From Rhodococcus ruber (lineage in GTDB: Bacteria > Actinomycetota > Actinomycetes > Mycobacteriales > Mycobacteriaceae), in contig NZ_JAPWIJ010000002.1 in the NCBI RefSeq assembly GCF_027270735.1, positions 248,001 to 312,000 on the forward strand: a stretch of DNA of 64,000 nt, read 5' to 3'. The notes beneath the pieces are model-generated. The model was not told where the DNA came from. It worked only from the letters and a program-made list of their open reading frames with translations, and searched no databases. The position numbers were made by a program, and so were the translations under genes. This document shows positions 14,050-32,755 of this stretch, piece by piece. Every line of letters starts with the position of its first letter. The first letter of the stretch is position 1.

Positions 14050-16230
14050 ATGGATCCCGAAGTGCAGCACGAACCGAGCGAGATCACCTACGACGAGAAG
14101 TTCTACCCGGCTCGGCCGAAACCACTTCGCCCCTCGGTGCGCCGCGCCAACCGGAGCAACAGTCCCACTCCCGACAGCGAGCCGGTGGCGTCGAACCCGG
14201 AGTACGTGGACTGGCTCACCGAACAGTCGATGCTGCGGGACGCCAAGCTGATCGCCGAGCAACTCTCGGGCAAGGGCAGCATGTGGCAGAACCCGTATGC
14301 CGATCCCGACCCTCGCGCCGCCGTCGAGCGCGCACCGGTGTGGTTCACCGCTTACCCCATCTCGGTGATCAACGCTCCGCAGACGAGCTTTCTGAGCACC
14401 CTCGGCGACGAGAAGCTGTGGCAGGCATTCTCCGAAATCGGCGTCACCGCAGTGCATACCGGCCCCGTCAAGGTGGCAGGCGGCATCCACGGCTGGCGTC
14501 CTACCCCCTCGGTCGACGGCCACTTCGACCGCATCGGCATGCAGATCGACCCCGCGTTCGGGTCTGAAGAAGAGTTCCGACGCCTGTGCGTGGTGGCGTC
14601 TGCGTACGACGGAATCGTCATCGACGACATCGTGCCCGGCCATACCGGCAAGGGGGCAGACTTCCGGCTCGCGGAGATGGCCGTGGCCGATTACCCCGGC
14701 ATTTACCACATGGTCGAGATCGAGCCGCAGGACTGGCACCTGCTGCCGCGAGTGCGCGCCGGTGCCGACTCCCAGAACATCGACGCCGAGGCCGAGGCCA
14801 ATCTCGCCCGCGCCGGATACATCATCGGGCAGCTGCAGCGAGTGATCTTCTACGAGCTCGGCGTGAAGGAAACCAACTGGAGCGCAACACCTCCCGTTGT
14901 CGGCATCGATGGCGTCGAGCGCCGTTGGGTGTACCTGCACTACTTCAAGGCCGGCCAGCCGTCGATCAACTGGCTCGACCCCTCTTTCGCCGGCATGCGA
15001 CTGGTGATCGGCGACGCGTGTCACTCCATCGCCGATCTGGGCGCGGGAGCATTGCGCCTGGACGCCAACGGATTTCTCGGCGTCGAGCGTCGAGCAGAGG
15101 GCCCGGGCTGGTCCGAGGGCCATCCCCTGTCCGAGGCCGCGAACCACCTGATCGCCAGCGTGGTGCGCAAGATGGGCGGGTTCACCTTCCAGGAGTTGAA
15201 CCTGACGATCGACGACATCAAGGCCATGGGTACCAACGGTGCAGACCTGTCGTACGACTTCATCAACCGCCCCGCCTATCAGCATGCGCTCGTCATGGGG
15301 AACACCGAATTCCTCAGGCTCACGATGACTCTGGCGCGCGACCACGGTGTCGATACGGCGTCGTTGGTGCATGCGCTGCAGAACCACGACGAGATGACGT
15401 TCGAGCTCATCCACTTCGCCACCCTGCATGCCGAGGACGAGTTCTCCTACGGCGGCGAGACGGTCAAGGGCTCCGACCTGGGTGATCGCATTCGCGGCGA
15501 GCTCACCGACCGGCTCACCGGACGGTGGGCACCGTACAACCGGACCTTCACGACCAATGGAATCGCTTGCACCACAGCAAGTGTCATCACCGCATCCCTC
15601 GGCATCCGCGATCTCGATCGGATGGACGAGGCAGACATCGAGACGGTCAAGCGAGCCCACCTTCTGTTGGCGATGTACAACGCCTGGCAGCCTGGCGTCT
15701 TCGCCCTGTCGGGCTGGGATCTGCTGGGCATCCTGCCCATCGATGCCGCCGAGGTCGACGATCTCATTCGGGAGGGTGACACCCGGTGGATCAACCGCGG
15801 CGCTCACGATCTCATGGGGTACTTCCCCGAGGCCGTCCGCTCGGAGTCGGGCATTCCGCGCGGACGCAGCCTCTACGGCTCGCTCCCCGAGCAGTTGGCC
15901 GACCCGCAGTCGTTCGCCCGCCAACTGGCGCGAATCATCGAGCTGCGCAAGCGGTTCGGTATCGCCACCGCCCAGCAGATCGACATTCCGACGGTCTCGC
16001 ACAAGGGCCTGCTGGTGATGGTCCACGAACTCAGCCAGGGGACCATCCAGGCCACAGTGCTGAACTTCTCGTCCGAGGAGATCAGCGCCACCATCCAGTC
16101 CAAGCACTTGGTGCCCGGCACGTGCGCCATCGACGTGTACGACGACAACGAGATCGCAACGGTGGACGAGTTGAACAGCTTCCCGATGACCCTGCGACCG
16201 TACGAGGGTGTGGCGGTGGTGCTGCGCTGA
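14050..16230 (+). CDS. GH13-family glucosidase/transglucosidase, trehalose synthase-like
   Basis: 726 residues with CGGAGG before the ATG. The four GH13 regions are visible: region [14 protein letters not shown] near 194, region [13 protein letters not shown] near 334-344 with the nucleophile Asp, region III FTFQELN near 379 with the acid/base Glu, and region IV LQNHDEM near 443. Region I lacks the usual Asn-His pair (reads PGHTGKG), which marks an unusual subfamily often annotated as maltose alpha-D-glucosyltransferase (trehalose synthase). It could interconvert maltose and trehalose or act on an alpha-glucan, in the cytosol (no signal peptide). The N-terminal 100 residues are Pro/Arg-rich and precede the barrel. 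Specificity is uncertain. Tandem 22-bp repeats upstream suggest specific regulation. Confidence 0.8.
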
Positions 16231-16256
16231 GGCGGCAGCCCGTCACCTCAGCCCGA

Positions 16257-16262
16257 TAGACT
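16257..16262 (+). promoter_or_regulatory. -10 box for leaderless transcript
   Basis: TAGACT lies 8 bases before the GTG at 16271. In actinobacteria a TANNNT box 6-8 bases before the start codon is the mark of a leaderless mRNA, and no ribosome-binding site is seen here. Confidence 0.6.
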
Positions 16263-16270
16263 GCTGCATC

Positions 16271-16831
16271 GTGGCCGAAGAAGAGATGGACCCGACCTCG
16301 CGCGGACCTCGGCCCGCGCGTCCGCAACCACCACGGCCGGACGTCGTCGTCGAGCCTCTTCGGCCACGGCAGGAGCACACGCCGTCGATTCTTCCGAGGG
16401 TGGCAACTGCGCTGTGGACGTTCACTGCGGTACTGGTTCTCGCATTGGCAGCGGTGATCGCACTGAATTGGGAATCGGTGCTCTCCGGCGTCGAAACTGC
16501 CGTCTCACAGCAGGATTCGACGGCAAGTGCGGCCGACGTTCGCAACACCGCCTCGGCCACGCTGTTGTCCAGTGGGGCTGCATCGGCGGTACTGGTTCTG
16601 CTCGGATTCGTCGCACTGAACTTGCTGCGCGGCGCGGCGACGTCGTCCAAGGTTCTGATGGGCGCAGTCGGGATCTTGACCATCGGTGCGGCCGTCACGT
16701 TCTCGACCTTCGTCTCCGACGCCCCCGCGCTGCTCGGCGGTGTTCTGCAGTGGGGACCGTTCGTGGTCGCAGCAGCGGCAGCCGCGGCGACCGTCGTCGC
16801 CCTACTCCCCCGGCGGCCCTCAGCCATGTAA
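16271..16831 (+). CDS. hypothetical membrane protein
   Basis: 186 residues from the GTG at 16271, selected because of the TAGACT box just upstream (a leaderless start); ATG at 16286 is the alternative. The Pro/Arg-rich cytosolic N-terminus (residues 6-45) is followed by four hydrophobic helices at about 48-68, 98-118, 127-147 and 155-178. No domain is recognised. It converges with iniC, 18 bp apart. The function is unknown; the layout (disordered N-terminus, helices in two pairs) is shared by many small actinobacterial envelope proteins. Confidence 0.7.
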   Translation: MAEEEMDPTSRGPRPARPQPPRPDVVVEPLRPRQEHTPSILPRVATALWTFTAVLVLALAAVIALNWESVLSGVETAVSQQDSTASAADVRNTASATLLSSGAASAVLVLLGFVALNLLRGAATSSKVLMGAVGILTIGAAVTFSTFVSDAPALLGGVLQWGPFVVAAAAAAATVVALLPRRPSAM

Positions 16832-16849
16832 GACTCGAGCCAGTAAGAC

Positions 16850-18310
16850 TCAGGCCATTGAAGCGAGTATCCCCTCGGCGCTGCGAGCGGCGAGGGCGCA
16901 CGAGCCAGAGGTGAACTGATCCAGCAGTGGGTGCTCGGACAACCCCCGCCACTTGCGCACTGCTGCCAGCGCGATCTCGCGTTGTTGGGCGAGACCGGCA
17001 TCGGGCGGCAGATTCAGGCGTTCGGTGGCGGAGATGCCGAAGCCGCCGATGACTCGCTGCAGGTCCAGCAGGGCGCCGTCCGGGAGTTTCGGTGTGGTGG
17101 AGCGTAATCGGCCGAGCAGACGCAGTTCGGCAAAGCCGTGCACGTCCGCCAGCATCCGCCCGGCCTCGGTGCGCAGGGCATGAGATTCCGGCCGGAACTC
17201 CAGAATTCGCTGCAGCGCAACCAGAGCCGAATGCAATTTCAGTTGGTCGGCGCGCTGACCGAACTGCACGTCGATCACCGAGCGTAGTTCGCTCAGGCCG
17301 CTTCGTTCGACCAGATCGGCAGCAAGCGTGGGCGAATCGCGCACCCCCAGCCGAATCAGCGTGACCGCCATCCGAATTCCGAACAAACCGAAGCGGTCGA
17401 CGATGCTGGCCCGCAGCGCGGCGTCGACGGGCAACGTGCTCTCGGGGCGCACGAAGCGATCGGCCGAGAGCATCGCCAACTGCAGATCCTCGGTCGGTAC
17501 CGTCGCCAATGTCTCGAACGCAGCGAATTCGTTCTGCCGCAGGGTTTCCGCACCGAGTGCGAGCAAACCTGCAACCGGGACCACCGCCTGACACAAACCG
17601 GTGGCCTCGAGCTCGGACGCGAACCTCGCGGCGACCTCCTTGGCCGACATCATCGCGTCCATCCGGCCCGAGCCGACCTCGTCGGCCCGCGAGACCACCC
17701 CGATCACGCCGAGGGGGCCCGAATCGCCGCCTACGTGGGCACCGATCTGACCGAGAAACGACACATCGGACGCGTTGAGCGTGCGCAGCAGATACACGAC
17801 GGCATCGGCACCCGAGGACGAGTTCTCGGGGGTGAGCATCGCGAGGGTGCGGGCCGAGACATCGCGCGAGAGCGATGACGTGCCGGGGGTGTCGATGATC
17901 GTCGTCTGCGCCAAGGTGCTGGCGGGCCATTCGACGTCCAGACGATCGACCTGCGCGGCCGTCAACGACCCAAGATCGAAGGTCAATCGGCCGTCCCGTC
18001 GCTGCACCGGAACGTTCGCAGCACGATCACCGTCGTACCAGGCCGTGACGGCGGGAGTGACGCCGTTGCGATACCACGTGACGACCTTGGTGCATTCGGT
18101 GGCGTCGGTCGGGGCAATATCCTGCCCGACAAGCGAATTGAGCAGTGTGGATTTGCCGGCCTTGAGGGATCCCGCCAATGCCACCCGCAGCGGCTCGTCC
18201 AGTCGGTACAGACATTCGTCGAGCATCCACGAGGCTTCGGCGTCCCCCGCGTAGGTCGATCGAGCAACCGAGATCAGGTCACGCGCCCGGTTCAGAGCCG
18301 TCACGCTCAT
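16850..18310 (-). CDS. iniC: IniC, dynamin-like GTPase of the iniBAC operon
   Basis: 486 residues from the ATG at 18308-18310, overlapping the iniA stop by 4 bases. A longer upstream frame reaches 18976 but lies inside iniA. The GTPase domain shows GSLKAGKSTLLNSL (P-loop, 47-54), a conserved Thr region (TECTKVV) and IIDTPGT near 131. Helical stalk-like sequence follows. Mycobacterial IniC is about the same size and lies in the same place. IniA/IniC act in cell-envelope stress and drug tolerance and the family can remodel membranes. Unlike IniA no clear membrane segment is visible, so it may work as a heteromeric partner. Confidence 0.9.
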   Translation of the reverse strand: MSVTALNRARDLISVARSTYAGDAEASWMLDECLYRLDEPLRVALAGSLKAGKSTLLNSLVGQDIAPTDATECTKVVTWYRNGVTPAVTAWYDGDRAANVPVQRRDGRLTFDLGSLTAAQVDRLDVEWPASTLAQTTIIDTPGTSSLSRDVSARTLAMLTPENSSSGADAVVYLLRTLNASDVSFLGQIGAHVGGDSGPLGVIGVVSRADEVGSGRMDAMMSAKEVAARFASELEATGLCQAVVPVAGLLALGAETLRQNEFAAFETLATVPTEDLQLAMLSADRFVRPESTLPVDAALRASIVDRFGLFGIRMAVTLIRLGVRDSPTLAADLVERSGLSELRSVIDVQFGQRADQLKLHSALVALQRILEFRPESHALRTEAGRMLADVHGFAELRLLGRLRSTTPKLPDGALLDLQRVIGGFGISATERLNLPPDAGLAQQREIALAAVRKWRGLSEHPLLDQFTSGSCALAARSAEGILASMA

Positions 18311-20115
18311 ACCGCGGTGTCCTTGACGAGAGCGCTTGCCCGAGAGTTCAAATCGGCTGCCACTCGCAAGTCCTGCTCCAGCTGAGCAATGCGAGCAGCG
18401 CGATCGGTGTTGTCGGCCGCGGCGGCTTCCTGTGCCGAGCGCAGGGACTCGTTCAGCGACCGCAGAGTCTGTTCGGCGATCGAGGTGAAGTGATCGCGCA
18501 GTACCCGCTGGATCTGCCGCAGCCGGTCCTTGGACTCCTTGCCGACCTGAAAGCTGACGTCGTCGGTGAATCGGCGGATCGCCATCTTTGCCTCCGAGCG
18601 ACGTGCCTTGACTCGGTTTTCCTTGTCTTCCTTGTAGGCCTTGGTGCCCAGCAGAACGCCCGCGCCGATCGAGATCGGGTTGAGCAGACTCAGCCCGACG
18701 AAAGTGGTGATCAGACCGAACATCAAGACGCCGCCGTAGGAGCCGCGCATTCCCACGAGAACCTTCTGCGTGATCCCCACTCGACCGGATTCCAGGTCGG
18801 CCAACGACGAGACGGGTTCGAGAACGTTGTCCAGATCGCCGAGATCGAGATTCGGCAGCGCCGCCGCTCCGGAGGACGCGAAGTGCTCGGCCACCAGCTC
18901 CGAGAGCCACAGAGCTCTCTCGTGCGCCCACACGAAATTGTCGCCGACGGATGCGGCAATCTGCTCCTCGAGCCATTCGCCGAGTTGCGGCCAGTCCTTG
19001 CCCGGATCCCCCTCGTCGACGGTCTCTTCCGCCTCCCGCGTGACACGACGCAATCGGTCTCGCAGATCGTGATCGATATCGGACGCCAGATCGGCGATGC
19101 CGTCACCGAGTGTCTGCTGCCATTGCGACGAGCGCTTGTGCAGTTCTTCGGCAGCGGATTTGGCGCGCTGCAGACCGGCGACGGCCGCGGCCGCCCGCTC
19201 CGGATCCTTCAGCGCCGCAAGCTCACTACCGAACGAGAGCGACAGGTGTTCGGTGACCGACCGAACGTCGAGTGAGACCGACGCGCGAGCCAGTACGTCC
19301 GCGCGGGCCACCACGTCGTCGCGAAGGAACGCGTAGAGCTGCTGAAAACCGGACTCGGCATTGAGTTCCTCGTCGTTCAAACGCAGTGCGTGAGAGCGCA
19401 ACAGAGACGACACCGGAAGCATCTGCACCTCGAGGCCGCCGCGATCGAGGTGCCCGCGATTGGCCTCGACGATCTGCCGCCAGTGCGGATACAGATCGAT
19501 CTTGGTGATCAGTACGGCCACGGCCGGGCACAATCCCTGCACCTGCCGCAGGAACGACAGTTCCGGCTCGGTGAATTCGCGGGAGGCGTCGGACACGACG
19601 AGTACTGCGTCGGCGGACGGGATGAGGCCCAATGTGCCTGCAGCGTGCGGATTTCCGTGACCGCCGACTCCTGGTGTGTCGACCAGAACCAGGCCGTCGG
19701 CGAGCAGTGGGCTCGGCACTCCGATGTCCAGGCGCAACACTTCGCGGCCCTGTGCTCGTGGACTCGCCGGGGTGACGGTCGTGACCTCTTCGAGCGGCAC
19801 GTCGACACGGATGGGCTCACTACCCGGATCTGCGAGAACGAGTTGTGCAGAGAAGCTCTCGGCGTTGGACACCACCGTCGGGATGGCGGTGGTCTCGTCG
19901 TCACCGACCGAGCACACCGTCAGATTGAGCAGCGAATTCACGAACTGGCTCTTGCCCTGTTTGAGCGGTCCGACCACGATGATGCGTCGGCGCGGATCGA
20001 GGACCCGCGTTCGCGCCGCCTCGACGCGATCGACCAGATCGGATCTGCCCGCCGATGTTGCCACCGCCGCAGTGCGACTCAACAGCTCGGCCAGCTCCGT
20101 AGTGTGCCCGTCCAT
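18307..20115 (-). CDS. iniA: IniA, bacterial dynamin-like GTPase
   Basis: 602 residues. GTPase motifs are GPLKQGKS (49-56), DTPGVGG (146-152) and TKID (204-207), followed by a long helical bundle with coiled-coil character and a hydrophobic membrane segment at about 458-490 (GVLMFGLITTFVGLSLL). The C-terminal helices (LRDHFTSIAEQTLRSLNESL) would fold back as in other dynamin-like proteins. The mycobacterial homologue is induced by isoniazid and ethambutol and mediates membrane fission. It is translationally coupled to iniC. A hairpin and a TAGAGT box (20180-20175) between iniB and iniA suggest iniAC can be transcribed separately from iniB. Confidence 0.93.
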   Translation of the reverse strand: MDGHTTELAELLSRTAAVATSAGRSDLVDRVEAARTRVLDPRRRIIVVGPLKQGKSQFVNSLLNLTVCSVGDDETTAIPTVVSNAESFSAQLVLADPGSEPIRVDVPLEEVTTVTPASPRAQGREVLRLDIGVPSPLLADGLVLVDTPGVGGHGNPHAAGTLGLIPSADAVLVVSDASREFTEPELSFLRQVQGLCPAVAVLITKIDLYPHWRQIVEANRGHLDRGGLEVQMLPVSSLLRSHALRLNDEELNAESGFQQLYAFLRDDVVARADVLARASVSLDVRSVTEHLSLSFGSELAALKDPERAAAAVAGLQRAKSAAEELHKRSSQWQQTLGDGIADLASDIDHDLRDRLRRVTREAEETVDEGDPGKDWPQLGEWLEEQIAASVGDNFVWAHERALWLSELVAEHFASSGAAALPNLDLGDLDNVLEPVSSLADLESGRVGITQKVLVGMRGSYGGVLMFGLITTFVGLSLLNPISIGAGVLLGTKAYKEDKENRVKARRSEAKMAIRRFTDDVSFQVGKESKDRLRQIQRVLRDHFTSIAEQTLRSLNESLRSAQEAAAADNTDRAARIAQLEQDLRVAADLNSRASALVKDTAV

Positions 20116-20187
20116 ACTCTCGCTTCACAACCCGTTCTCATCGACACCCGCAGGCTCCGCTCCCGCAAGCACAAACTCTAGCGACGA

Positions 20188-20224
20188 CACGGCCCCGAGT
20201 GTGACGAACACACTCGGGGCCGTG
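20188..20224 (-). terminator. hairpin between iniB and iniA
   Basis: Perfect 16-bp stem CACGGCCCCGAGTGTG / CACACTCGGGGCCGTG with loop ACGAA, 21 bases after the iniB stop on the minus strand. It could end most iniB transcripts or act as a partial terminator inside the operon. A TAGAGT -10-like box for iniA lies just beyond it. Confidence 0.8.
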
Positions 20225-20245
20225 CACACGGTGTCGCTGACCGAA

Positions 20246-22762
20246 TCAGGGGTGCAGCGTGTCGATGTCGTGATCGACCGTCACCGCGTGGCCGAGGGAA
20301 TCGGCCGCCGAGTCCACCGAGCCGTGCAGGCTGCCGTCGCTGAACAGGCTCGAATCGCTTTCGGCCTGTCCGAAGACGTTGGAGTCGACACTCGACCAGC
20401 CCGTGCCGGACGCGGTTGCGCTCGAATCGAACGAGCTGGAGTGCTCGAACGATCCCGACGCTGCACCGTTCGCGGCCGAGGAAAGGCTGCCGCCTGCATT
20501 CGCCAGTCCCTCTGCACCGGATTCCAGACCGCCGGTGACGCTGCCCGCTGCCTGGCCACCGATGTCGGCAGCGGAATCAAATCCGCCGGCCGCGGAAGCC
20601 GCAGCGTCCGCACCAGCATCCAAACCCGCACCCACGGTGGACGCGATTTCGCCTCCGAGCGAGGCACCGGTGTCGAGTCCCGCGCCGACGTTCGACGCGA
20701 TCTCGCCGCCCACCGAGGTTCCTGCGTCGACCGCTCCGCCTGCCGTACCTTCGAGGCCGCCGGCGACGGATCCTGCTGCATTCGCAGCTCCTTCGAGCCC
20801 GGCACCTGCAGATGCTGCTGCGTCGATTCCGGTGCTGATGCCGCCGGTCACAGTGCCTTCGAGCCCGGCCCCGGCCTGAGCTGCGGCATCGACGCCGCCG
20901 GTAACTCCGCCCGCTACTCCGCCGGCGATACCGCCACCGAGGCTGCCGAGGCCTGCGAGGCCGCCCGACAAGCCGGCTCCTGCTTCACCCAGGCCTGCGA
21001 GTCCACCGGTCAGGCCTGCACCCACGTTTCCGACGGCTGCGAGGCCACCGGTGACATCCGCACCCACGTTGCCGACGGCTCCGAGGCCACCGGTGACATC
21101 TGCACCGACCTGGCCGAGGCCGGCCAGTCCGCCGGTCAGGCCGGCGCCCACTCCGCCGAGTCCGGCGAGACCGCCGGTCAGGCCCGCACCCACGCCACCC
21201 ACTCCGGCCAGACCGCCCGACAGATCTGCGCCGACTCCGCCCACTCCGGCGAGTGCTGCGTCGACAGTTCCCGTCAGATCGGCTCCGGCGGCCACCGCCG
21301 TATCGATTGCTCCGGACAGTCCTGCGCTCAGTTCGGTTCCGGCACCGAGTACGGCCCCGAGGTCGAGTGCTGCGCTGGTGTCGAGCACCGTCTCGAGGGC
21401 GGTGCCGAGCTGGGCACCGGCGGTCCCGCCGACGCCGAATGCCGCTCCGAGGAGGCCCTCGAGGTTCCCGGCAACTCCACCGGCACCGGCAACTCCACCG
21501 GCCAGGCCGCCTGCAAGTCCGCCCGCGATGTCGCCACCGATGCCTGCACCTGCGCCGAGGACTCCTTCGACTGCGGTGTCGAGGGCAGCGGTCAGGCCGC
21601 CGATCGCGCTGGTGTCCAGGTCGAGTGCCGTTCCCAGGGCGCCGCCGACGACCGCGCCGACGTTGCCGCCCGCAGCCAACAATGCGTCGACGTCGAGGTC
21701 TGCGAGCGCACCGGCGTCGAGGACGGCTCCGAGTGCGGTTCCGATGGATCCCGCGATGGCACCGTCGGCCGCGAACAGCCCACCGAGGCTGCCGCCGACG
21801 CCACCGGCGATGTCGCCGACCAGCGCGCCACCGGCACCGAATGCTCCGTCCAGTGCTGCACCGATATCGGTCGTGAGATCGCCGCCGACGGTGCCGAGGC
21901 CTGCGAGTGCGCCGCCGATTCCTGCGGTCAGAGCGGCACCGAGGTCACCCGCGATGTCGAGTCCGGCTCCGGCACCGAGGACGGCGTCGAAGACTCCACC
22001 GAGCGCCGTGCCGAGCTCGGCTCCGACGGTTCCGCCGACTCCGAAGATCGCGCCGAGCGCGCCGCTCAGCCCGCCCTGGATGTCGGCCAGTGCGCCGAGG
22101 TCGACGGCACCGGTCGCGCCGATGGCGGCGTCGAGAGCGGCCTGCAGTTGTGCGGTGATGTCGCCGCCGATAGCTCCCCCGATGCCCGCGCCGGCTCCGA
22201 GAAGACCGGTCAACGCAGCGCCGAGACCGACGGTTCCGCCGAGCAGACCGTCGAGGTCCAGATCGAGATTGCCACCGATTCCTGCGCCTGCACCGATCAA
22301 AGCGTCGAGGGCACCACCGAATGCGGCACCGAGCTCGACACCGATCTGCCCACCGACCGCGAGCGCTGCGGCGAGTGCTGCCTGCAGGGATGCGGCGATC
22401 TCACCCGTCACGTCGATTCCGCCGGTGAGGCTGCCTCCTGCAGCGAGTCCGCCGCCGGCGACTGCGCCTGCGGCCAGCCCGAGTCCGGCAGACAATCCGC
22501 CGCCGAGGCTCGCTCCTCCGGCGAGTGCGCCCTCGAGGCCTGCCGATCCGCCTGCACCCAAGATGGCCGACAGCTGACTGCCCGCTCCGGCGAACAGGCC
22601 CGACTCGGCGACCAGGGGTGCCACGGCGACGATGTCCGCGTGGGTCACGTCGCCGAGGCCGGCGGCGGCCAGCGTCGTCTCGGGGTTGGCGCAGTAGGCC
22701 GCTGCAGCCTGGTCGTCGCGCAGCAGGCTGAGAATGAAATCGAGTACGGCGTTGGTAGCCAT
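20246..22762 (-). CDS. iniB: IniB, Gly/Ala-rich repeat protein
   Basis: 838 residues from the ATG at 22760-22762 with AAGGAGA upstream; a longer frame to 22909 runs through the promoter and is rejected. The first 55 residues (ATNAVLDFILSLLRDDQAAA, then YCANPETTLAAAGLGDVTHA) match the conserved IniB N-terminal domain of mycobacteria. The rest is low-complexity Gly/Ala/Leu/Val sequence. At about 505-620 it forms regular 16-residue units of the form GGVGAGLTGGLAGLG. The last 60 residues are polar (SADSLGHAVTVDHDIDTLHP). There is no signal peptide. The repeat resembles amphipathic, surface-associating proteins. It is about twice as long as M. tuberculosis IniB. Function of IniB is unproven; co-transcription with dynamin-like proteins suggests an envelope-associated partner. 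Confidence 0.9.
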   Translation of the reverse strand: MATNAVLDFILSLLRDDQAAAAYCANPETTLAAAGLGDVTHADIVAVAPLVAESGLFAGAGSQLSAILGAGGSAGLEGALAGGASLGGGLSAGLGLAAGAVAGGGLAAGGSLTGGIDVTGEIAASLQAALAAALAVGGQIGVELGAAFGGALDALIGAGAGIGGNLDLDLDGLLGGTVGLGAALTGLLGAGAGIGGAIGGDITAQLQAALDAAIGATGAVDLGALADIQGGLSGALGAIFGVGGTVGAELGTALGGVFDAVLGAGAGLDIAGDLGAALTAGIGGALAGLGTVGGDLTTDIGAALDGAFGAGGALVGDIAGGVGGSLGGLFAADGAIAGSIGTALGAVLDAGALADLDVDALLAAGGNVGAVVGGALGTALDLDTSAIGGLTAALDTAVEGVLGAGAGIGGDIAGGLAGGLAGGVAGAGGVAGNLEGLLGAAFGVGGTAGAQLGTALETVLDTSAALDLGAVLGAGTELSAGLSGAIDTAVAAGADLTGTVDAALAGVGGVGADLSGGLAGVGGVGAGLTGGLAGLGGVGAGLTGGLAGLGQVGADVTGGLGAVGNVGADVTGGLAAVGNVGAGLTGGLAGLGEAGAGLSGGLAGLGSLGGGIAGGVAGGVTGGVDAAAQAGAGLEGTVTGGISTGIDAAASAGAGLEGAANAAGSVAGGLEGTAGGAVDAGTSVGGEIASNVGAGLDTGASLGGEIASTVGAGLDAGADAAASAAGGFDSAADIGGQAAGSVTGGLESGAEGLANAGGSLSSAANGAASGSFEHSSSFDSSATASGTGWSSVDSNVFGQAESDSSLFSDGSLHGSVDSAADSLGHAVTVDHDIDTLHP

Positions 22763-22877
22763 CTGGGTCTCCTTGACGAGTGGTACTTCGTGGTTGATCA
22801 CAAAGCTATGCACCGGAGAGCCCCCGCCCAACGGGGCCGATCCCCCTACTACCCCGGGGGTCGCCAGGGGGCTTTCA

Positions 22878-22904
22878 TTAGGGGATCTGAGCGCTTTAGG
22901 GGAT
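22878..22904 (+). promoter_or_regulatory. direct repeats in the iniB/hsp70-like divergent promoter
   Basis: TTAGGGGAT occurs twice (22878-22886 and 22896-22904), 18 bp apart, in the 261-bp gap between iniB and the divergent Hsp70-like gene. GC-rich GGGG/CCCC blocks lie next to it. The repeats resemble the MalT box (GGGGATGAGG), and LuxR/STAND regulators of the MalT type are encoded nearby. The rest of this gap shows no gene; a TAGCTT box on the minus strand near 22807 may serve iniB. Confidence 0.5.
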
Positions 22905-23023
22905 TTCACTCGTTTCGCGCTCTAACCTGCTGTGAGACGTAACGAACAACGAACGCGATCCGACAGTGCGAGTGACGGCAGTACCACTGACGGCTGGGGC
23001 GAGATGAAGGCGGCGACACCACT

Positions 23024-24802
23024 ATGAACGGCAAGAGTGCAGCCTGCGGAATGACAGGGACAGGGCTCGGCATACGTATCGGTTCGGTGACAGCTGCCGC
23101 TGCGCTCGACAACGACCCCGTGACCTCGGTGGTCAAGCGTTCGGCACTCGATCTACGCCCCGGTGCGGCCCCGAGCCTGGCCGAGCTGTGGGACCGATCC
23201 ACGCGCTACCTGATCAGTGGATTCGCCGACCGAGTGGGCGACCCGGTGGAACTGATCGACGACGACGGCCGCAGTCACCGTGCCGAGGATCTGTACGCCA
23301 CCGCTGCTCGCGCACTCGTGGCCGAGGTGTCCGCCGGAGCCGATTCCGCTCCGACCGTCGTCGTCACCCATCCCACCCGCTGGACGGCGTACACGGCCGA
23401 GGTCCTCGGCGAGGCGTTGGACCGCGCAGGACTGGCAGACGTCACGCTGGTGCCCGAGTCCGTTGCCACGATGCGCTGGCTCGAGGTGACTCGCGGAGCA
23501 CAGTCCGACGGCCTCGCAGTGATCTACGACCTGGGTGCCAGCGCCCTCGACGTGACCCTGATGCGGACCGGCACCGATGTAGGCGTCGTCGGCAGCGGCG
23601 TCCATTCGCAGGAATTCGGCGGTGCGCAGTTCGATCACGCGATCATGCAGTACGTCCTCGACACCGTCTCGGGAAGTCAGTCGTTCGAGTTCGATCCGTT
23701 CGACCCCGACACCGTGGGTGCGCTGGTGGAATTGCGAGCCCGGTGCGGCCAGGCCAAGGAACAACTCTCCTACGACACGTCCACCTCGCTCACTGTCGAC
23801 CTACCCGGTCTGCACACCGAGGTTCGCCTGGTGCGCTCCGAAATCGAAGAGCTGGTACGCGCATCACTGCTGGCTTCGGTCGGGGTCGTTCGAGACGCCG
23901 TGGCCGCCGCAGGGCTCGAGGTCACCGACATCGACCAGGTGGTGCTCGTCGGTGGCAGCTCGGCCATCCCCCTCGTCGCCGAGCTCATCTCGTCCGAGCT
24001 GCGTGCGCCTGTGGTGGCAGGCCCGCGCCCGGAACTGACCGTCGCGATCGGAGCCGCGATACTCGGAAGCGACATCGCCGACGCCACCGCGGCGGACAAC
24101 GCAGCATCCCTCGCCGCGATACCCACTGCGTCCGTGGCTTCTGCCGCGCCCATGCCGCGGCCCACCCCGAGACCGGCACCGACCCCTACGGCCGTCCAAT
24201 CCGACGCGGGCATGTCCGGCCGCAAGAAGGCAGGCATCGTCGCCGGATCCGTGGTCGTCCTGGCACTTCTCGCCGGCGGAGGGTTGTCGGTGGGCACAGC
24301 ATTGACCTCCGACAACACCGCTCCGGCCGAATCCAACGCCGAGATCTCGAGTACACAAACACCGGGAACCACCGCAGCGGTGGCGGATGCATCGACGACG
24401 GCGGCCACCGGCGAGAACGGTGCTGCTGCAGTCGGATCCGAGGGCACCCCCACCACGGTCGTCAACGCCGACGGCACGGTGACGCAGATCGATCCCGCCA
24501 CCGGCGCACCGGTCGCCGGATCCCCCGCCCCCGCCGCGGCCCCCGCCGACAACGGTGCAGCAACCGTGCCGACCATCCCGTCGGTCTCGGCCCCGACGGT
24601 GCCCAACTACCAACCGCCTGCTGTGCAGGTCCCCAGCTACCAGCCACCCACGTACCAAGGCCCTACTCTCGGCGACGTCGGCCAAGGTGTGGGCCAGGGC
24701 CTCGGCGGCGTGGTCGGTGGCGTCGGTGACGGGCTCGGCGGTGCGGTCGGTGGCGTCGGCGAAGGTCTCGGCGGAGTCGTCGGCGGCCTGACCGGCCGAT
24801 AA
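23024..24802 (+). CDS. membrane-anchored Hsp70-like protein A
   Basis: 592 residues. Residues 13-360 form an Hsp70/actin-like fold: a phosphate-1 counterpart GIRIGSVTAA (Asp of GIDLGTT absent), THPTRWTAYTAEV aligning with the DnaK VPAYF segment, VPESVA aligning with NEPTAA, YDLGASALDV (168-177, phosphate-2) and VVLVGGSSAIP (316-326, adenosine motif, intact). There is no substrate-binding domain. A Pro-rich linker leads to one membrane helix (about 413-437) and an outer tail rich in Thr/Pro. The last 38 residues repeat GVGxGLGGVVGGVG, like IniB. It starts 261 bp from divergent iniB and is followed 7 bp later by a STAND/LuxR gene. Possibly a sensor rather than a folding chaperone. Confidence 0.82.
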   Translation: MNGKSAACGMTGTGLGIRIGSVTAAAALDNDPVTSVVKRSALDLRPGAAPSLAELWDRSTRYLISGFADRVGDPVELIDDDGRSHRAEDLYATAARALVAEVSAGADSAPTVVVTHPTRWTAYTAEVLGEALDRAGLADVTLVPESVATMRWLEVTRGAQSDGLAVIYDLGASALDVTLMRTGTDVGVVGSGVHSQEFGGAQFDHAIMQYVLDTVSGSQSFEFDPFDPDTVGALVELRARCGQAKEQLSYDTSTSLTVDLPGLHTEVRLVRSEIEELVRASLLASVGVVRDAVAAAGLEVTDIDQVVLVGGSSAIPLVAELISSELRAPVVAGPRPELTVAIGAAILGSDIADATAADNAASLAAIPTASVASAAPMPRPTPRPAPTPTAVQSDAGMSGRKKAGIVAGSVVVLALLAGGGLSVGTALTSDNTAPAESNAEISSTQTPGTTAAVADASTTAATGENGAAAVGSEGTPTTVVNADGTVTQIDPATGAPVAGSPAPAAAPADNGAATVPTIPSVSAPTVPNYQPPAVQVPSYQPPTYQGPTLGDVGQGVGQGLGGVVGGVGDGLGGAVGGVGEGLGGVVGGLTGR

Positions 24803-24809
24803 GTCGACC

Positions 24810-27317
24810 GTGACCAGCATCCGACCCTCCCTCGTCGGCGTCGAACGCGCCGATCGTTTCGTTCGTGATGCCCTCGACACCAAAGGTTTTCATGTTCTCG
24901 TCGGAGTGAACGGGTCCGGTCGCTCTGCGGTTCTCGACGCGATCGGAGCGTCGGTGGAGCCGTATCCCGGCAGTATCGCCGATGCACCGTCGGGCGCGAC
25001 GGTTCTCGTCGACGACGCGCATCTGCTGCCCGAGCAACGGTTGGACGAGATCGCCGCAGCGGCAACTCGATCGGATATCACGCTGATCGTGGCAACCGCG
25101 CCGCGCGAGTTCGATTCTCGCATCGAGAAGTTGATCGCGTCCGCCGGTTCCGGTCGACTGACCCTGGTTCCGCTGGACAAGACGTCGATTGCCGCACGAG
25201 CTGCCGCCACCGCGCGTCCCGTCTCTGCGGCGCTGGCCACTGCAATCGCAAAGTCCACCGGGGGAATTCTCGCCGCTGTCGACGCGGCTCTTGCCGCGCT
25301 CGGCGCAGAAATCTCCGACCCGGCACCCCTGCGAGCGGTCACCGAAGCCGTTGCGGCGCAGCATCGCCGGATGTTGCTCGACACCACCGACGACACTCGG
25401 GCGCTGCTGCTCGCAGCTCGGTTCGGCATCGCTCCCGAGCCTGCGACGGCCGCGCAGCTCGTCGCGCGGCCGAACGAGGTCGAATCTCTTGTCGACCTCG
25501 CCTCCAGCTCCGGTGTGCTCGACGCGACCGGCGCGTTGATTCCGGCCGCCGAGGCTCCTTTGACCGAGCTGATCGGCGACCGGCGCTGCCGCATCCTGCT
25601 CGATTCCGTCACCGCCGTCGCCGCCCGGGCCCGCCTGCTCGACGCCACCGCCGCGCGTGCGCTGGCGCAGCGCGGCGTCGTACATGCCGAATTGGCCGAT
25701 TTTCTCGTACAGCAGGCAGATTCGGCGTCGATCGAGACTGCGGGCGCGTTGTACGACGCGGCTGTCGACGCGGGGTTCGATCCGGCGGTGCTCGCTGCCC
25801 GGCGGTCCGAGGTCGCGGCCGCCACCGGCGACTTGGACCAGGCGGGGCGCTACGCCGATGTGGTACTCGACAGCGCCGCCGCCTGCGATTCCGCAGATCT
25901 GCGGACGGCGGTTCGGGTCTCGGCCTCGATTGCCGCGCAGCGCGGAATGCTCTCGCGCAGTGCGCAACTGTTCACTTGGCTCGGCGCGGATCGACTCGGG
26001 CCCGATGCAGTGTGGGCTGCTCTGTCCGCTGCCGCAGCCGGTGACCGCAGTGCCGCAGACCGGTCGATGACCGCCGTGTCCGCGCTTGCGCCGACGTCGA
26101 GCACCGCGTCGGGCACCTTGCTGGTGGCAGGCGTGCTTGGGTCCATCGATTCCCGCAGTGCAGCCGCATCGAGCGCTGCTGCACACTCGTTGATGCGCGC
26201 AATGTCTTTGACCGGCAACGTGTCCGATCGTTCGTGCGCCACCGATACCGCCGCGGCCGTCGCGGCCCTCCATGCACTGCACTGCGGCGACCTCGCCCGC
26301 GTCGATTCCATCCTGGCGCGGGCTCTGCCCGAACGGCGTCCGGGATCCGAGGCACATACCCGACTGATCCTCGTCGGGGCCTGGGCATCGATGCTGCGGG
26401 GCGATGCAGCCGAGGCGGGCTCTGCACTCGACACCCTCCGGATACCGATGTCGCACATGCGCAATCAGCTCTTCCTGCAGGCGATCCGGGTGGGTCTGGC
26501 TCGCAGATCCGGTGATGCAGGGTCGCTGATCACGGCATGGACCGGCGCACAGAACGTCATTGCCGAATACTCTGCAGATCTGTTCGCACTACTGCCCTTG
26601 GGCGAATTGCTCTTGGCTGCAACGCGACTCGGCCAGGTCGACCGCGTCGAACATCTCGTGGCGCAGGCCTCCGAGCTACTCACAGCGCTCGGAGATCCGC
26701 CCGTCTGGGCCTCGGCGCTGCACTGGTATCAGGTTCAGGCGGCCATCGTGGCCCAGACTCCCGACGCGCTGGTGCCGCACGCCAAGGCTCTCGCAGCAGC
26801 CGCGCCGACACACCCGTACAGCGCCGCCCTCGCCGCGGCCGGTCGCGCCTGGCTCGGTGTATTGCAGGGCAGGCCCGACACGACCGAAGTGGAGAACTCG
26901 GCACGTACGTTGACCGCGTTCGGACTGCCCTGGGACGGAGCCCGATTGGCGAGCGAGGCCGCGCTGACCGTCACCGATACCGCCACCGCAACCGCACTGC
27001 TGCACATCGCCAGGTCATTGCGTCAGACCGCCTCGCAGCCGCCCAGCTCGCAGCGACGCGACAGTCCTGGAACCACGCCGACTCCGACTGGTTCCCTGAG
27101 CGAACGCGAGGCCGAGGTCGCCGAATTGCTCGTGCTCGGAGTCACGTACCGCGAGCTGGGCAGCCGTCTCTACATCTCCCCGAAGACCGTCGAACATCAT
27201 GTGGCTCGAATACGGCGCAGGCTCGGAGCCGAGTCTCGTTCGGAGCTCATCTCGATGCTGCGAGCGATGGGATACGGAGGCTCCACCAGCACAGCTGTCG
27301 GCACTGTAACTGTGTGA
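24810..27317 (+). CDS. LuxR-family STAND/LAL-type transcriptional regulator (IniR-like candidate)
   Basis: 835 residues from a GTG, 7 bp after the Hsp70-like gene. The N-terminal ATPase domain has GVNGSGRSA at 32-40, a Walker A with Arg in place of Lys, and VLVDDAHLLPE as Walker B. A long helical-repeat (TPR-like) middle follows, and the C-terminus is a LuxR HTH: SEREAEVAELLVLG, SPKTVEHHVARIRRRLG. In M. tuberculosis the 832-residue Rv0339c (IniR type), which controls iniBAC, sits in the equivalent neighbourhood, so this protein is a good candidate for the iniB regulator here. The other candidate is the regulator at 40270-42864. The Lys-to-Arg change leaves ATP hydrolysis in doubt. Confidence 0.85.
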   Translation: MTSIRPSLVGVERADRFVRDALDTKGFHVLVGVNGSGRSAVLDAIGASVEPYPGSIADAPSGATVLVDDAHLLPEQRLDEIAAAATRSDITLIVATAPREFDSRIEKLIASAGSGRLTLVPLDKTSIAARAAATARPVSAALATAIAKSTGGILAAVDAALAALGAEISDPAPLRAVTEAVAAQHRRMLLDTTDDTRALLLAARFGIAPEPATAAQLVARPNEVESLVDLASSSGVLDATGALIPAAEAPLTELIGDRRCRILLDSVTAVAARARLLDATAARALAQRGVVHAELADFLVQQADSASIETAGALYDAAVDAGFDPAVLAARRSEVAAATGDLDQAGRYADVVLDSAAACDSADLRTAVRVSASIAAQRGMLSRSAQLFTWLGADRLGPDAVWAALSAAAAGDRSAADRSMTAVSALAPTSSTASGTLLVAGVLGSIDSRSAAASSAAAHSLMRAMSLTGNVSDRSCATDTAAAVAALHALHCGDLARVDSILARALPERRPGSEAHTRLILVGAWASMLRGDAAEAGSALDTLRIPMSHMRNQLFLQAIRVGLARRSGDAGSLITAWTGAQNVIAEYSADLFALLPLGELLLAATRLGQVDRVEHLVAQASELLTALGDPPVWASALHWYQVQAAIVAQTPDALVPHAKALAAAAPTHPYSAALAAAGRAWLGVLQGRPDTTEVENSARTLTAFGLPWDGARLASEAALTVTDTATATALLHIARSLRQTASQPPSSQRRDSPGTTPTPTGSLSEREAEVAELLVLGVTYRELGSRLYISPKTVEHHVARIRRRLGAESRSELISMLRAMGYGGSTSTAVGTVTV

Positions 27318-27376
27318 GGGCCCGAAGCGACATAACGACCGACCACCGGTAACCGATCAGAACAGGTAGCGCCACA

Positions 27377-27410
27377 CATGACCGAGCAGCCCGCATGACC
27401 GAGCAGCCCG
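27377..27410 (+). repeat. 17-bp tandem duplication across the start codon
   Basis: CATGACCGAGCAGCCCG occurs twice with no gap (27377-27393 and 27394-27410). Both copies contain an ATG. The upstream one opens a 6-codon frame (MTEQPA) whose TGA overlaps the second ATG. Confidence 0.95.
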
Positions 27411-28513
27411 GCGGGGCGAGTATCGGCACACCGGACGTCGGCCTCTATCTGGACGACGAACGTGCCGTCGCCGCTGTGTCGCATCCCATTTCTCCCGGAC
27501 CCTCGCTGCACCTGGCGTCGCTGCACTCCACCGTGCTCAACACTCACTCCGACGGCACCGTCTCCCTCGGTGACGCAACCGACGCCGATTCGGAGGCGTA
27601 CACGCATTTTCTCGACTCCCTCGCCGACGGAGTCGGCGTCACCGGCAGCAAGGGCACCGTCCATCCCGCCGAGCAGCTGACGTCGATGGCCCTGTTGTGC
27701 CTGCTCACCGAGGTGGCATCGTCGATCCATCTGCAACCCGGCGACCTCGCCGCGGCCGCCACCTACCCGGCCCGCTGGACGGCCGAGCAGGTCTTCGCAT
27801 TGCGCTCGGCGATGAATGCGCACGGCCTCGCGCACGTGTCGCTGGTGGCCGAAGCGGAGGCGCTCGCCGCGTGGAACGCATCGGTGCGAGCAACCCTGGA
27901 GAGCAGGGACACGGCCCTCGCCGCGGCGCGCGGAGCTGCCATTCTGGCCTCGGAATTCCCCGTCGACGCCGTCACCGAGCGCATTGCGGTACTCGCCCCG
28001 ACCCGATCCGACCGTCGCCCACTGTTCGCGGCGGCGGCGTTCGCCTCGGCGTTGACCGTCGGCGCGGCCTTGTTCGCGCTGCAACTGGGAACCTCCACCC
28101 ACACCACTGTGCCCACCATCGGTAACGCCCAGCTGACCCCGCCGACGACGTCTGCCGGGGCCGGAGCCGGTGGCCCGATCGATTTCCCCACCGTCGTCGT
28201 CGAGCCGGCAGCCGAGATCGCCCCCGTCGCTCCTCGTCCGCTGGAAACGACGGAACAGACGAGCCCGACCGAAACCACCGACAGTCCACGACGGGAACCG
28301 GACCCGACCGAGGTCGACACCCGCCCGGCGTTCGAAACACCCGAGAGCACAGACCGCGACGAACCGCGTGAGACCGTCGATCCGGTCGAACCCGAACCGG
28401 TGGTCCCGGTCGACGAACCGGGCGACGAGACCGACGAGACGACCGACCCGGATTCGGCCGAACTACAACCCGTGATCGAGTCACGCGACGCAACGACGGA
28501 GAGAACTCCATGA
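27395..28513 (+). CDS. Hsp70-like membrane protein lacking most of the nucleotide-binding core
   Basis: 372 residues from the second ATG of a duplicated start region. Residues 14-165 align with lobe I of its neighbours (AATYPARWTAEQVFALRSAM at 121-140, VAEAEALAAW in place of NEPTAA). At about 168-185 it jumps straight to the segment that normally follows the adenosine motif (DTALAAARGAAILAS, compare ELTVAIGAAILGS in Hsp70-like A). Phosphate-2, lobe II and the adenosine motif are missing. A membrane helix at about 208-228 and an acidic, Pro/Thr/Glu-rich outer tail follow. It cannot bind ATP like an Hsp70. It overlaps the next Hsp70-like gene by ATGA, so the two products are made together and could form a pair. 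Confidence 0.78.
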   Translation: MTEQPGGASIGTPDVGLYLDDERAVAAVSHPISPGPSLHLASLHSTVLNTHSDGTVSLGDATDADSEAYTHFLDSLADGVGVTGSKGTVHPAEQLTSMALLCLLTEVASSIHLQPGDLAAAATYPARWTAEQVFALRSAMNAHGLAHVSLVAEAEALAAWNASVRATLESRDTALAAARGAAILASEFPVDAVTERIAVLAPTRSDRRPLFAAAAFASALTVGAALFALQLGTSTHTTVPTIGNAQLTPPTTSAGAGAGGPIDFPTVVVEPAAEIAPVAPRPLETTEQTSPTETTDSPRREPDPTEVDTRPAFETPESTDRDEPRETVDPVEPEPVVPVDEPGDETDETTDPDSAELQPVIESRDATTERTP

Positions 28514-30141
28514 GCGGCGCGGGGCACCTCGGACTGACGGTCGGGAATACCAGGTCGGTGGCGGTACACCGCGTCCGCGCCGACGACGAGCCGACGGTCG
28601 TCGTGGTACCGACAACTCTGAGGTTCGACGAGGACGGCCGCGCACATCTCGGCGAACCCGCCGACACCGCGCCCTACACCCGGTTCGTGGACCTGGTCGG
28701 TCAGCAGGAGAACCTCGAACCCCACGCCGACGCCTACCGCGCCGAAGACCTGATGGCCAACGCGGCCAACTGCCTCGTCACGATGATGTCCGCGGCGGCC
28801 GAGTCCGTCGACAGACCCGTCACGACGATGACGTACCCGGCGCGGTGGCCACGCGAAAGCGTCGCCCTGCTGCGTGACGCCCTCGACCACACCGGCCTCG
28901 ATTCGGTCGCGCTGGTGCCCGACGCGAAAGCCGCCAGTACCTTCGCGCAGCGCAACCCCGGCACGGCCGCAACGGTGATCGACATCGGGGCCACCGGTAC
29001 CGACATCTCGACGTATCCCGGAGGCGGAACGGTTCGCACCACCGCCGTCAGCGGCGACGTGTTCACCGACGCACTGTTCGATCACGTGGTGACCGATCGC
29101 GAGCACATCGACCTGTCCGACGCCGCAGTGCTGGCCGCACTCTCCGGTGTCGTCGCCTCGTGCGAGGCAGCCAAACATGCGCTCAGCACCGACGAGCAGG
29201 CCACCATCTCGGTCGATCTGCCGGGCTTGTCGCAGACCACGACCGTGACGCGAGCCGAGTTCGCAGACCTGGTCGCGCCGTCGGTGCGCACCCTCGACGT
29301 GCCGCAGACCGGCACCGTTGTGCTCACCGGAGGCAGCGCCGCACTCGAGCCGGTGGCCGCAGAGATCGCCGAACGGACGTCGGGCCGGCTGGTCGTCGAG
29401 CCACTCGCCGCGCCCCGAGGCGCACTGCTGCTGGCCGAGGTCGACGACGTCGACGGCAACTCTCTCGTCACCGGTGCCGCACCGATCGTCACCCGCAACG
29501 ACGGCACCGATTCGCTCGATACCGACGCCATTCCTGTTGTCCCGCCGGAGAAGTCCCTTGCCTTCTCCGAGGCCATGCCGGCGGTGGCCCCGATGTTCGA
29601 GCCCTCGGAGTTCCGGTCCCATCCGGTCGAACCCGCCGAGGAGAACGCGCCGAACACCGGTGCCGCGCCGGCGGCGGCCCCAGCAGTCGCGTCGTCCGAG
29701 GGCAAGAAGGAACGCAGCGAACGCTCACGCACCATCACCACCGTCGTTGCCGGTGCTGCGGCGGGTGTGGTGATCGTTCTGGCAATCGCGGCGGTCAGTG
29801 GCGTATTCGGCAGTTCGCCGGCTCCGACGCCCCCGGCCGTCACCGATGCGGGCTCGCCGGTCGTCACCTCCACCAGCGCGCCGTCGACCACAACCGTCAC
29901 TCCCGCTCCAGCCGTCGTCGCGCCGGAGGTGGTCGACGAACCGACGTACGAGCCGTACATCCCGCCTCAACCCGCGCCGCTGCCTGCGCCGCCGCCCGCA
30001 CCGATCCCCACGCCCCCGCCCGTGGTCACCACCACGGACCCGGTGCCCACCACGACCCCGGTGACAACCACCCCGGCCGCGACGACCACGACCCCGGCTA
30101 CTACCACCACGACTCCGCCGACGACGACCCCGCCGGCATAG
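28510..30141 (+). CDS. membrane-anchored Hsp70-like protein B
   Basis: 543 residues. The Hsp70-like domain covers about 5-310: GLTVGNTRSVAVH (phosphate-1 without Asp), MTYPARWPRESVALLRDAL, VPDAKAA, VIDIGATGTDIS (156-167, phosphate-2) and VVLTGGSAAL (270-279, adenosine motif). Lobe II is short. A cytosolic linker rich in Pro/Ala and a basic stop (KKERSERSR) precede the single membrane helix (410-432). The outer tail of about 110 residues is Pro/Thr repeats (TTTPPTTTPPA at the end), typical of wall-spanning stalks. It is coupled to the lobe-deleted paralogue upstream. No downstream terminator is evident before the secreted protease 81 bp later. Confidence 0.82.
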   Translation: MSGAGHLGLTVGNTRSVAVHRVRADDEPTVVVVPTTLRFDEDGRAHLGEPADTAPYTRFVDLVGQQENLEPHADAYRAEDLMANAANCLVTMMSAAAESVDRPVTTMTYPARWPRESVALLRDALDHTGLDSVALVPDAKAASTFAQRNPGTAATVIDIGATGTDISTYPGGGTVRTTAVSGDVFTDALFDHVVTDREHIDLSDAAVLAALSGVVASCEAAKHALSTDEQATISVDLPGLSQTTTVTRAEFADLVAPSVRTLDVPQTGTVVLTGGSAALEPVAAEIAERTSGRLVVEPLAAPRGALLLAEVDDVDGNSLVTGAAPIVTRNDGTDSLDTDAIPVVPPEKSLAFSEAMPAVAPMFEPSEFRSHPVEPAEENAPNTGAAPAAAPAVASSEGKKERSERSRTITTVVAGAAAGVVIVLAIAAVSGVFGSSPAPTPPAVTDAGSPVVTSTSAPSTTTVTPAPAVVAPEVVDEPTYEPYIPPQPAPLPAPPPAPIPTPPPVVTTTDPVPTTTPVTTTPAATTTTPATTTTTPPTTTPPA

Positions 30142-30222
30142 CGCTGAACTGCGTAAACACTGGTTGTACGACTGATGCCCTAAGGTGGGGCGCTGATACC
30201 AAGCACCCGATGAAGGGATTTC

Positions 30223-31521
30223 ATGCGTAACACCGGGGCTCTGCGTACTGCAGTGCTGTGCTCGACGGCTTTCGTCCTGTTCGCTTCGTTCTCCGGAACA
30301 GCGTCCGCCGAGCCCGTCGTCCAATCTCCCGCCGATCAGCTTCCCGCAGAGCTCGTCGAGGCCGTGCAGCGCGATCTGAAGATCTCCCCGCAGGAGTATC
30401 TCGATCGAGCTGCTCGTGCGCAGGAACTGTCCGCCTACGCATCGGACTTCCGTGCCAGCCGCCCCGCCGATTTCGCCGGCGCATGGATCGGACCCGACGG
30501 CAACGCCGTCGTCGCCGTCACCTCCCCAGCCGCGGCGCAGGCAGTAGCCAAGGACGGATATGCCACCGCTCAGTCACCGGTGTCGGCGGACGGGCTGGAG
30601 AAGTCGCTGGCAGACCTCAACGGATGGATCGCCGGACTCCCCCGTGAGATCTCCGAGCAGATCAACGGAACGGCCATCGACTTCATCGACAACCAGGTCG
30701 TCATCGACCTGGTGAACAGCCCGATCGGTAGCGCGCTCAACCTCCCGACGTTGCTGGCCAATATCAAGGTCATCCTCTCCCCGGGCGGAAACAAGCCGGT
30801 CGACCCGACTCCCATGGGCGGCGACACATACGTCACCAGCACCGGGCCCATCGCCGACGCTCCGACCACCGACATCAGCATTTGTTCGTTCGGGTTCAAC
30901 GCCGTCGACAAGTCCGGCGAAGCCGTCAATTTGACTGCCGGACACTGCAATCCGAACAAGGCCACCGGAGCCGGCGGCGCACCGGTGTACCTTCCCGATC
31001 CGTCGGACATCAAGCGCAGCACTCAGATCGGCTCGTTCGATCGGTCGAGCCTGGGCGCACAGGACGGCCTCGACTGGTCGGTGATCGCCCTGAACGACAG
31101 CGGCATTGCGTCCGGCCTCGACCGTCCCACCGTCCGCGGAGCAAACGGCAGCACCGTCACGATCACCGGAACCGCAGCACCCGTGATCGGAGCGCCGGTC
31201 TGCAAGTCCGGACAGTCGTCGTCGTTCACGTGTGGCGTTGTCGCAGCCGACCGCGTCGAGACGCAGCTCTACATGGAAGACGGCACCTCCCGCACGGTCC
31301 GCGGATTCGCCAGTACCGCGTGCACTCTGGCGGGCGACAGTGGCGGTGCCATCGTGACCGGAACACTCGCGCTCGGAATCACCAGCGGATCCAACAGCGG
31401 TGGCGCACCCGATTGCAACGAGGCGAACCTGGCATTGGCGCAGTACGGCGGCACCGCGAGCCTGGGCATTCCCATCGATCAGGTCGTCGACGCAACCGAA
31501 TCCACCCTGCGAACCGAGTGA
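30223..31521 (+). CDS. secreted S1-family serine protease 1
   Basis: 432 residues, GAAGGG before the ATG. A Sec signal peptide (cut near SGTASA-EP, residue 29) is followed by a propeptide (about 30-195) of the alpha-lytic/streptogrisin type (LPAELVEAVQRDLKISPQEY), then the chymotrypsin-fold domain. Catalytic residues are His241 (LTAGHC), Asp284 (LDWSVI) and Ser373 (AGDSGGA). Cys pairs flank His and Ser (CSFGFN..., GHC; TACTLAGD...). It is probably autoprocessed outside the cell and degrades extracellular or envelope proteins. A paralogue follows 87 bp downstream. Its position just after the Hsp70-like operon raises the possibility that it works with the exposed tails of those proteins, but this is inference. 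Confidence 0.92.
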   Translation: MRNTGALRTAVLCSTAFVLFASFSGTASAEPVVQSPADQLPAELVEAVQRDLKISPQEYLDRAARAQELSAYASDFRASRPADFAGAWIGPDGNAVVAVTSPAAAQAVAKDGYATAQSPVSADGLEKSLADLNGWIAGLPREISEQINGTAIDFIDNQVVIDLVNSPIGSALNLPTLLANIKVILSPGGNKPVDPTPMGGDTYVTSTGPIADAPTTDISICSFGFNAVDKSGEAVNLTAGHCNPNKATGAGGAPVYLPDPSDIKRSTQIGSFDRSSLGAQDGLDWSVIALNDSGIASGLDRPTVRGANGSTVTITGTAAPVIGAPVCKSGQSSSFTCGVVAADRVETQLYMEDGTSRTVRGFASTACTLAGDSGGAIVTGTLALGITSGSNSGGAPDCNEANLALAQYGGTASLGIPIDQVVDATESTLRTE

Positions 31522-31549
31522 GCCGGTAGGTCGGCAGCTGCGCACCCCC

Positions 31550-32736: not shown

Positions 32737-32755
32737 CCGACACGCGCTTCGAACG

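Follow-up and report, generated by a model that had tools for sequence, protein, structure and literature searches.

A stretch of 64,000 nucleotides from Rhodococcus ruber (contig NZ_JAPWIJ010000002.1, positions 248,001 to 312,000; hereafter the window) contains the iniB-iniA-iniC operon on the minus strand and, divergent from it across a common 261-bp region, an operon of four genes, hspA-iniR-hspL-hspB (Table 1). This layout had been described in the original prediction and is confirmed by the sequence and by domain matches, including the IniB N-terminal domain (NF038175) in a gene upstream of two genes of dynamin-like GTPases (PF00350). The iniBAC/hsp module is very probably real. The explanation favoured here, with moderate confidence, is that it represents a conserved envelope-stress module under the control of IniR, in which iniBAC is combined with membrane-anchored, probably non-hydrolysing Hsp70-like partners of the dynamins.

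Table 1. Features of the iniBAC/hsp locus in the window and the second dynamin–Hsp70 cluster of the host genome.
Feature	Position	Strand	Basis and remarks
iniC, dynamin-like GTPase	16850..18310	-	PF00350 40 bits; 4-bp overlap with iniA, iniC starting inside the end of iniA
iniA, dynamin-like GTPase	18307..20115	-	PF00350 54 bits
iniB, Gly/Ala-rich, IniB N-terminal domain	20246..22762	-	NF038175 79 bits, cut-off 40
Divergent intergenic region, common to both operons, 261 bp	22763..23023	.	sequence
Third, inverted near-copy of the repeat, ATCCCCCTA (as read on +)	22840..22848	-	
Candidate operator, direct repeat TAGGGGAT (22879-22886) + TAGGGGAT (22897-22904)	22879..22904	+	18-bp period
hspA: Hsp70 nucleotide-binding domain (NBD), then a single predicted transmembrane helix and a Pro/Gly-rich tail, predicted to be outside	23024..24802	+	alternative start possible at 23051
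HspA predicted transmembrane helix, residues 405-424	24236..24295	+	hydropathy
iniR homologue: STAND-type ATPase, C-terminal LuxR/GerE helix–turn–helix (HTH)	24810..27317	+	NF038181 466 bits; PF00196 residues 762-816
hspL: only lobe I of an Hsp70 NBD, then a predicted membrane helix and a Thr/Pro-rich tail	27395..28513	+	
hspB: degenerate Hsp70 NBD, hydrophobic stretch, Pro/Thr-rich tail	28510..30141	+	PF00012 29 bits; 4-bp overlap with hspL
Two trypsin-like protease genes, possible operon end	30223-31521 and 31609-32736	+	first: NF051463 22.9 bits, below cut-off 175; second: PF00089 28.5 bits
Second host-genome cluster	L219:14549-18414 and L220:378-3876		G000 contig C1

As in the mycobacterial iniBAC/IniR system, iniB, iniA, iniC and a STAND/LuxR regulator are found at one locus (PMC5760070). 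The mycobacterial locus has been described as iniR - iniB* - iniBAC, whereas three predicted membrane Hsp70-like genes are present here. The regulator, previously recognised only as a LuxR/STAND protein, is an IniR homologue: it aligns over its full length (residues 30-820), possesses the LuxR HTH and lies divergent to iniBAC. Unlike mycobacterial IniR, it scores below the equivalog cut-off of NF038181 (466 of 750 bits); this cut-off is passed by only 9 of the 201 genomes of the family. Its Walker A motif reads GVNGSGRSA, with Arg replacing the usual Lys. Across 173 IniR loci, some of them counted twice, this position is occupied by Lys in 96 and by Arg in 29, and the pattern is unmatched in 48. 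Some Nocardia-type loci contain a second, shorter IniR-like frame after iniR (L187:6800-8100, L189:13300-14600, L088, L092, L097).

The gene order is widely conserved. The family set of 201 genomes comprises 31 genera; an IniR profile (E <= 1e-40) matches 104 of them, from 19 genera, including every one of the 15 from the window's genus, and the IniB domain is present in 103. IniR and IniB occur together in 102 genomes, IniR only in two, IniB only in one and neither in 96. One genome of the 201, G090, has iniA and the IniB domain and lacks an IniR match at this threshold. A first set of loci includes 101 of the 104 IniR loci (18 genera, with the window among them). The hspA gene is located directly upstream of iniR on the same strand in 94 of these, and 92 have the order iniB<>hspA-iniR. 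Six of the seven misses begin less than 400 bp from a contig end, leaving L045 as a true exception; of three further IniR loci, the first conforms, the second begins at a contig end and the third (L226 of genome G031) is another exception. Both exceptions carry an Hsp70-like gene beyond iniC instead and, because of them, the adjacency of hspA and iniR is not obligatory. A named set, consisting of the best 80 of 431 relatives found in named genomes with an HspA alignment, has iniB divergent in 77 loci and iniR downstream in 72; five loci are cut by contig ends and three are orphans, in Mycobacterium or Mycolicibacterium. For 38 of the 80, 300 bases of hspA are identical with those of a first-set locus; the named set thus contributes 42 additional loci, its genera including Rhodococcus, Prescottella, Williamsia, Nocardia, Skermania, Mycolicibacterium and Mycobacteroides. 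The original prediction was to be given up if the genes did not co-occur across Nocardiaceae; by both of these counts, they do.

The common intergenic region contains a candidate IniR operator, a direct repeat that reads ATCCCCTAA in the iniB direction. After dereplication, 100 dissimilar iniB/hspA gaps were kept from 170, and TAGGGG/CCCCTA is present in all 100, with 13.1 expected from dinucleotide shuffles. Most commonly, the motif is arranged as a direct repeat, often TTAGGGGAT; at least two forward copies of TAGGGG are found in 86 gaps, and the most frequent spacings (n = 112) are 18 bp (56), 15 bp (20) and 17 bp (11). Strict pairs, defined as two repeat copies with a gap of 8-12, occur in 69 gaps; the gaps contain 90 such pairs in 29.5 kb, and the rest of the locus DNA (1,873 kb) contains five. 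Four of these five lie just before a second hspA (three loci, L039-L041) and the other before iniB (L215); L042, a fourth locus with a second hspA, has only a degenerate version of the repeat. The host genome (5.86 Mb) contains a single strict pair, located in this gap, and three matches to the backward control. The site has the same orientation when read toward iniB and toward the second hspA and therefore, judging from sequence, most likely drives those genes; hspA-iniR may or may not respond to it. Binding of the TAGGGG repeats by IniR is the role suggested for the site. Its iniB-ward direction fits the reported binding of IniR (Rv0339c) directly upstream of iniBAC and the reported finding that iniR is not itself induced by drug treatment (Boot et al. 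2017, PMC5760070). Within 350 bp before the orphan hspA genes of L198, L208 and L212, no TAGGGG is present, and no sigma-70-type promoter was found in 22700-23100. Two other motifs recur in the gaps: GTAACGA in 40 of the 100 (1.4 expected), with the window copy on the hspA side of the repeats, and CCAACGG in 45 (7.1 expected), with the window copy on the iniB side.

HspA has the fold of an Hsp70 NBD but differs from DnaK/Hsp70 (PF00012) in the absence of the substrate-binding domain and lid; the match to PF00012 ends at profile position 372 of 599, and the NBD is followed by a linker, a hydrophobic helix and a tail instead. Hydropathy predicts an HspA-like membrane helix in nearly all listed orthologues, and the predicted topology places HspA in the inner membrane, with the Hsp70 head in the cytosol and the tail in the cell wall. 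Aligned with the window's DnaK, the catalytic residue Asp8 is kept in 1 of 44 HspA sequences, Lys70 in 0 of 44 and Thr199 in 4 of 44; Asp194 and the VGG adenosine motif are kept in all 44. HspA is, judging from its residues, probably a non-hydrolysing Hsp70-like protein, the head of which may bind a nucleotide. The protein predicted to be lobe-deleted, HspL, indeed lacks the whole of lobe II of the NBD; together with its relatives, it apparently illustrates a stepwise loss of this lobe. Fold matches for HspA include structures of the ribosome-associated complex (RAC). The yeast RAC component Ssz1 is an Hsp70 that binds ATP and does not hydrolyse it, and it serves as a binding platform, not as a turnover chaperone. 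Ssz1 is soluble and ribosome-bound, whereas HspA is predicted to be membrane-anchored and its gene adjoins dynamin genes. The HspA tail is Pro- or Thr-rich in several genera; its likeness to IniB, cited in the original prediction as a sign of a single unit, is not specific to the protein's own IniB and was dropped as weak evidence.

Hsp70-like genes also accompany dynamins at other loci. In 12 loci (11 distinct, L047 being the same as L200), all of the Mycobacterium or Mycolicibacterium type, iniC is followed after 47-142 bp by an hsp gene in the same orientation. The host genome has nine PF00012 matches besides DnaK, hspA included, and a second cluster composed of two dynamin genes, two Hsp70-like genes and then a C39-type peptidase gene. 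A search of 197 genomes of the class with the IniC-like protein of this second cluster gave matches in 28, of which 19 are outside the family; 18 of these were opened. An Hsp70-like gene lies near the iniA/iniC-like genes in 15 of the 18, with about 0.6 expected by chance (calculated from Hsp70 counts per genome and 20 kb each, several loci being shorter). In five loci outside the family (L258-L262), iniR is located beyond iniC, yet hspA still diverges from iniB; these loci belong to one family and two genera and perhaps reflect one event. Because of the gene order, the common candidate operator and the pairing of Hsp70-like with iniA/iniC-like genes elsewhere, sequence comparison, apart from the tail, gives good support to the claim of a single functional unit, and the observation is stronger than could be known when the claim was made.

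In the favoured explanation, IniR, a MalT-type STAND activator, would bind the TAGGGG direct repeats and switch on iniBAC, as well as extra hsp genes carrying the same boxes. The HspA head would bind ATP or ADP without DnaK-like turnover and would act as a nucleotide-dependent docking switch for dynamin-like IniA/IniC, together with IniB, at the damaged membrane. The level of ATP, which is reported to track iniBAC induction (PMC6104191), counts in favour of this explanation. HspA may also report to IniR, since hspA almost invariably precedes iniR directly. The suggested role of HspA as a dynamin partner is ranked a little above a sensor role because hsp genes accompany dynamins with no IniR between them, L258-L262 included; the evidence leans only slightly that way.

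The strongest alternative, possible and clearly less probable, is that HspA is an upstream sensor of IniR: its membrane-anchored head would keep IniR inactive at the membrane and release it upon a rise in ATP or upon wall damage sensed by the tail. This is the model of the original prediction. The position of hspA directly before iniR (7 bp apart in the window) is what this would lead one to expect. A precedent is provided by MalT of E. coli, a STAND activator that is held by MalK and recognises asymmetric GGA-containing boxes. IniR has the MalT domain order and is reported to oligomerise without trehalose (PMC5760070); the candidate boxes resemble those of MalT in being asymmetric, G-rich and directly repeated. 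The systems differ in that the reported IniR inducer is trehalose, the TAGGGG repeats are mostly 18 bp apart and the partner of IniR would be an Hsp70-like protein, not an ABC ATPase. A surge of ATP is reported to track iniBAC induction (PMC6104191), and the Arg in the Walker A motif of the window IniR would make a separate nucleotide sensor useful. The five loci in which iniR has moved while hspA remains with iniB, the hsp genes right after iniC and those in dynamin–Hsp70 clusters lacking IniR argue against a sensor, as do L045 and L226.

A locus that bears on this choice is L148 (Rhodococcus sp. KRD162; L148:9959-13909), where hspA and iniR form a single open frame of 1317 residues. It is the only candidate for an Hsp70–IniR gene fusion in the named set, none being found in the 101 loci of the first set, and it was excluded from the HspA structure alignment. 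The joint frame counts in favour of a sensor. It lacks the ATPase head of IniR and the terminal part of the HspA tail. Because the ATPase head is missing, the frame is more likely to result from a deletion or an assembly error than to encode a functional fusion. As a single locus, L148 is not decisive and leaves the odds of the readings unchanged.

Several observations weigh against the favoured explanation. The adjacency of hspA and iniR fits a sensor at least as well as a dynamin partner, and L148, if it encodes a working protein, would favour a direct HspA-IniR link or, should the fused regulator act in the cytosol, contradict the assumed topology. L045 and L226 have room for an adjacent hspA beside iniR and lack it, and three of the 18 opened genomes outside the family (G275, G368, G216) have no Hsp70-like gene nearby. 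No strict repeat pair is present in the opened loci outside the family. Within the family, the repeat pattern matches 118 of 201 genomes, the backward control is commoner and there is no genome-wide enrichment; the pattern was rejected as a genome-wide marker and therefore only its position is informative. IniR of M. tuberculosis is reported to control iniBAC only and, among the mycobacteria considered, a dnaK-like gene is mentioned for M. smegmatis only (PMC5760070).

Passive linkage, in which hspA would be a long-standing neighbour that slow rearrangement has left in place and would have no role in the iniBAC response, is improbable. Vertical descent does preserve neighbours, and a real dnaK lies near 16 of the 101 first-set loci, but it lies on either side (seven times on the iniC side and nine on the iniR side), and trypsin-like protease genes are downstream in 66; these flanks shuffle while hspA stays. 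The repeat pairs before second hsp genes and the separate second dynamin–Hsp70 cluster also speak against passive linkage. It is more improbable still that HspA and related proteins act as conventional peptide-binding chaperones, with IniB or other secreted proteins as clients, given the missing substrate-binding domain, the loss of Asp8, Lys70 and Thr199 and the absence of a whole lobe in HspL.

According to PMC5760070, the iniBAC promoter shows the most specific and strongest induction by isoniazid and ethambutol; PMC13413693 presents HpoR as a repressor of iniBAC. IniA is characterised as a membrane-fission dynamin in PMC6715688, the main text of which does not contain the word chaperone. 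The original prediction knew of no Hsp70-like protein associated with this system; this has to be corrected, as Boot et al. (2017, PMC5760070) had already mentioned a dnaK-like gene next to iniR of M. smegmatis, a remark that partly reduces the novelty of the module. Among the matches listed from the open-licence literature, there is no report of a general Hsp70-iniBAC link or of a TAGGGG operator. In the same literature, MalT with GGGGATGAGG gave only unrelated matches, and no match was obtained for a transmembrane Hsp70 family protein in a Rhodococcus operon or for iniA/iniB with Rhodococcus and trehalose.

Other neighbours of the locus in the window include dnaJ-grpE-dnaK (9266-12949), followed by a TreS-like (maltose/trehalose) gene at 14050-16230, convergent with iniC. 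Of the 22 nearest Rhodococcus loci, 20 (L139-L141, L143-L146, L148-L160) likewise have a convergent TreS-like gene; trehalose is the reported inducer of IniR. In some genera, protease genes stand directly after iniR, and hspL and hspB are missing there. A further Hsp70-like match (56 bits) is located at 53377-54015 of the window (G000:C21:301377-302015). No Rfam family scores above threshold in 16000-33000.

A wider and more tentative proposal than any sensor role is that actinomycetes possess a general membrane-repair system in which dynamin-like GTPases are paired with pseudo-Hsp70s that span the membrane; the Hsp70 head would be an ATP-level switch conveying the state of the wall to the dynamin and, in the iniBAC branch, also to IniR. 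If this were true, drug-induced ATP surges would be read by HspA and not by IniR alone. The conserved partner and the precise candidate operator make the trigger of IniR and the joint role of IniB, IniA and IniC testable. The module would be an example of Hsp70 reused as a membrane-anchored switch, and the conservation of HspA, a hardly studied partner, points to a functional component of this drug-response system that had gone unnoticed.

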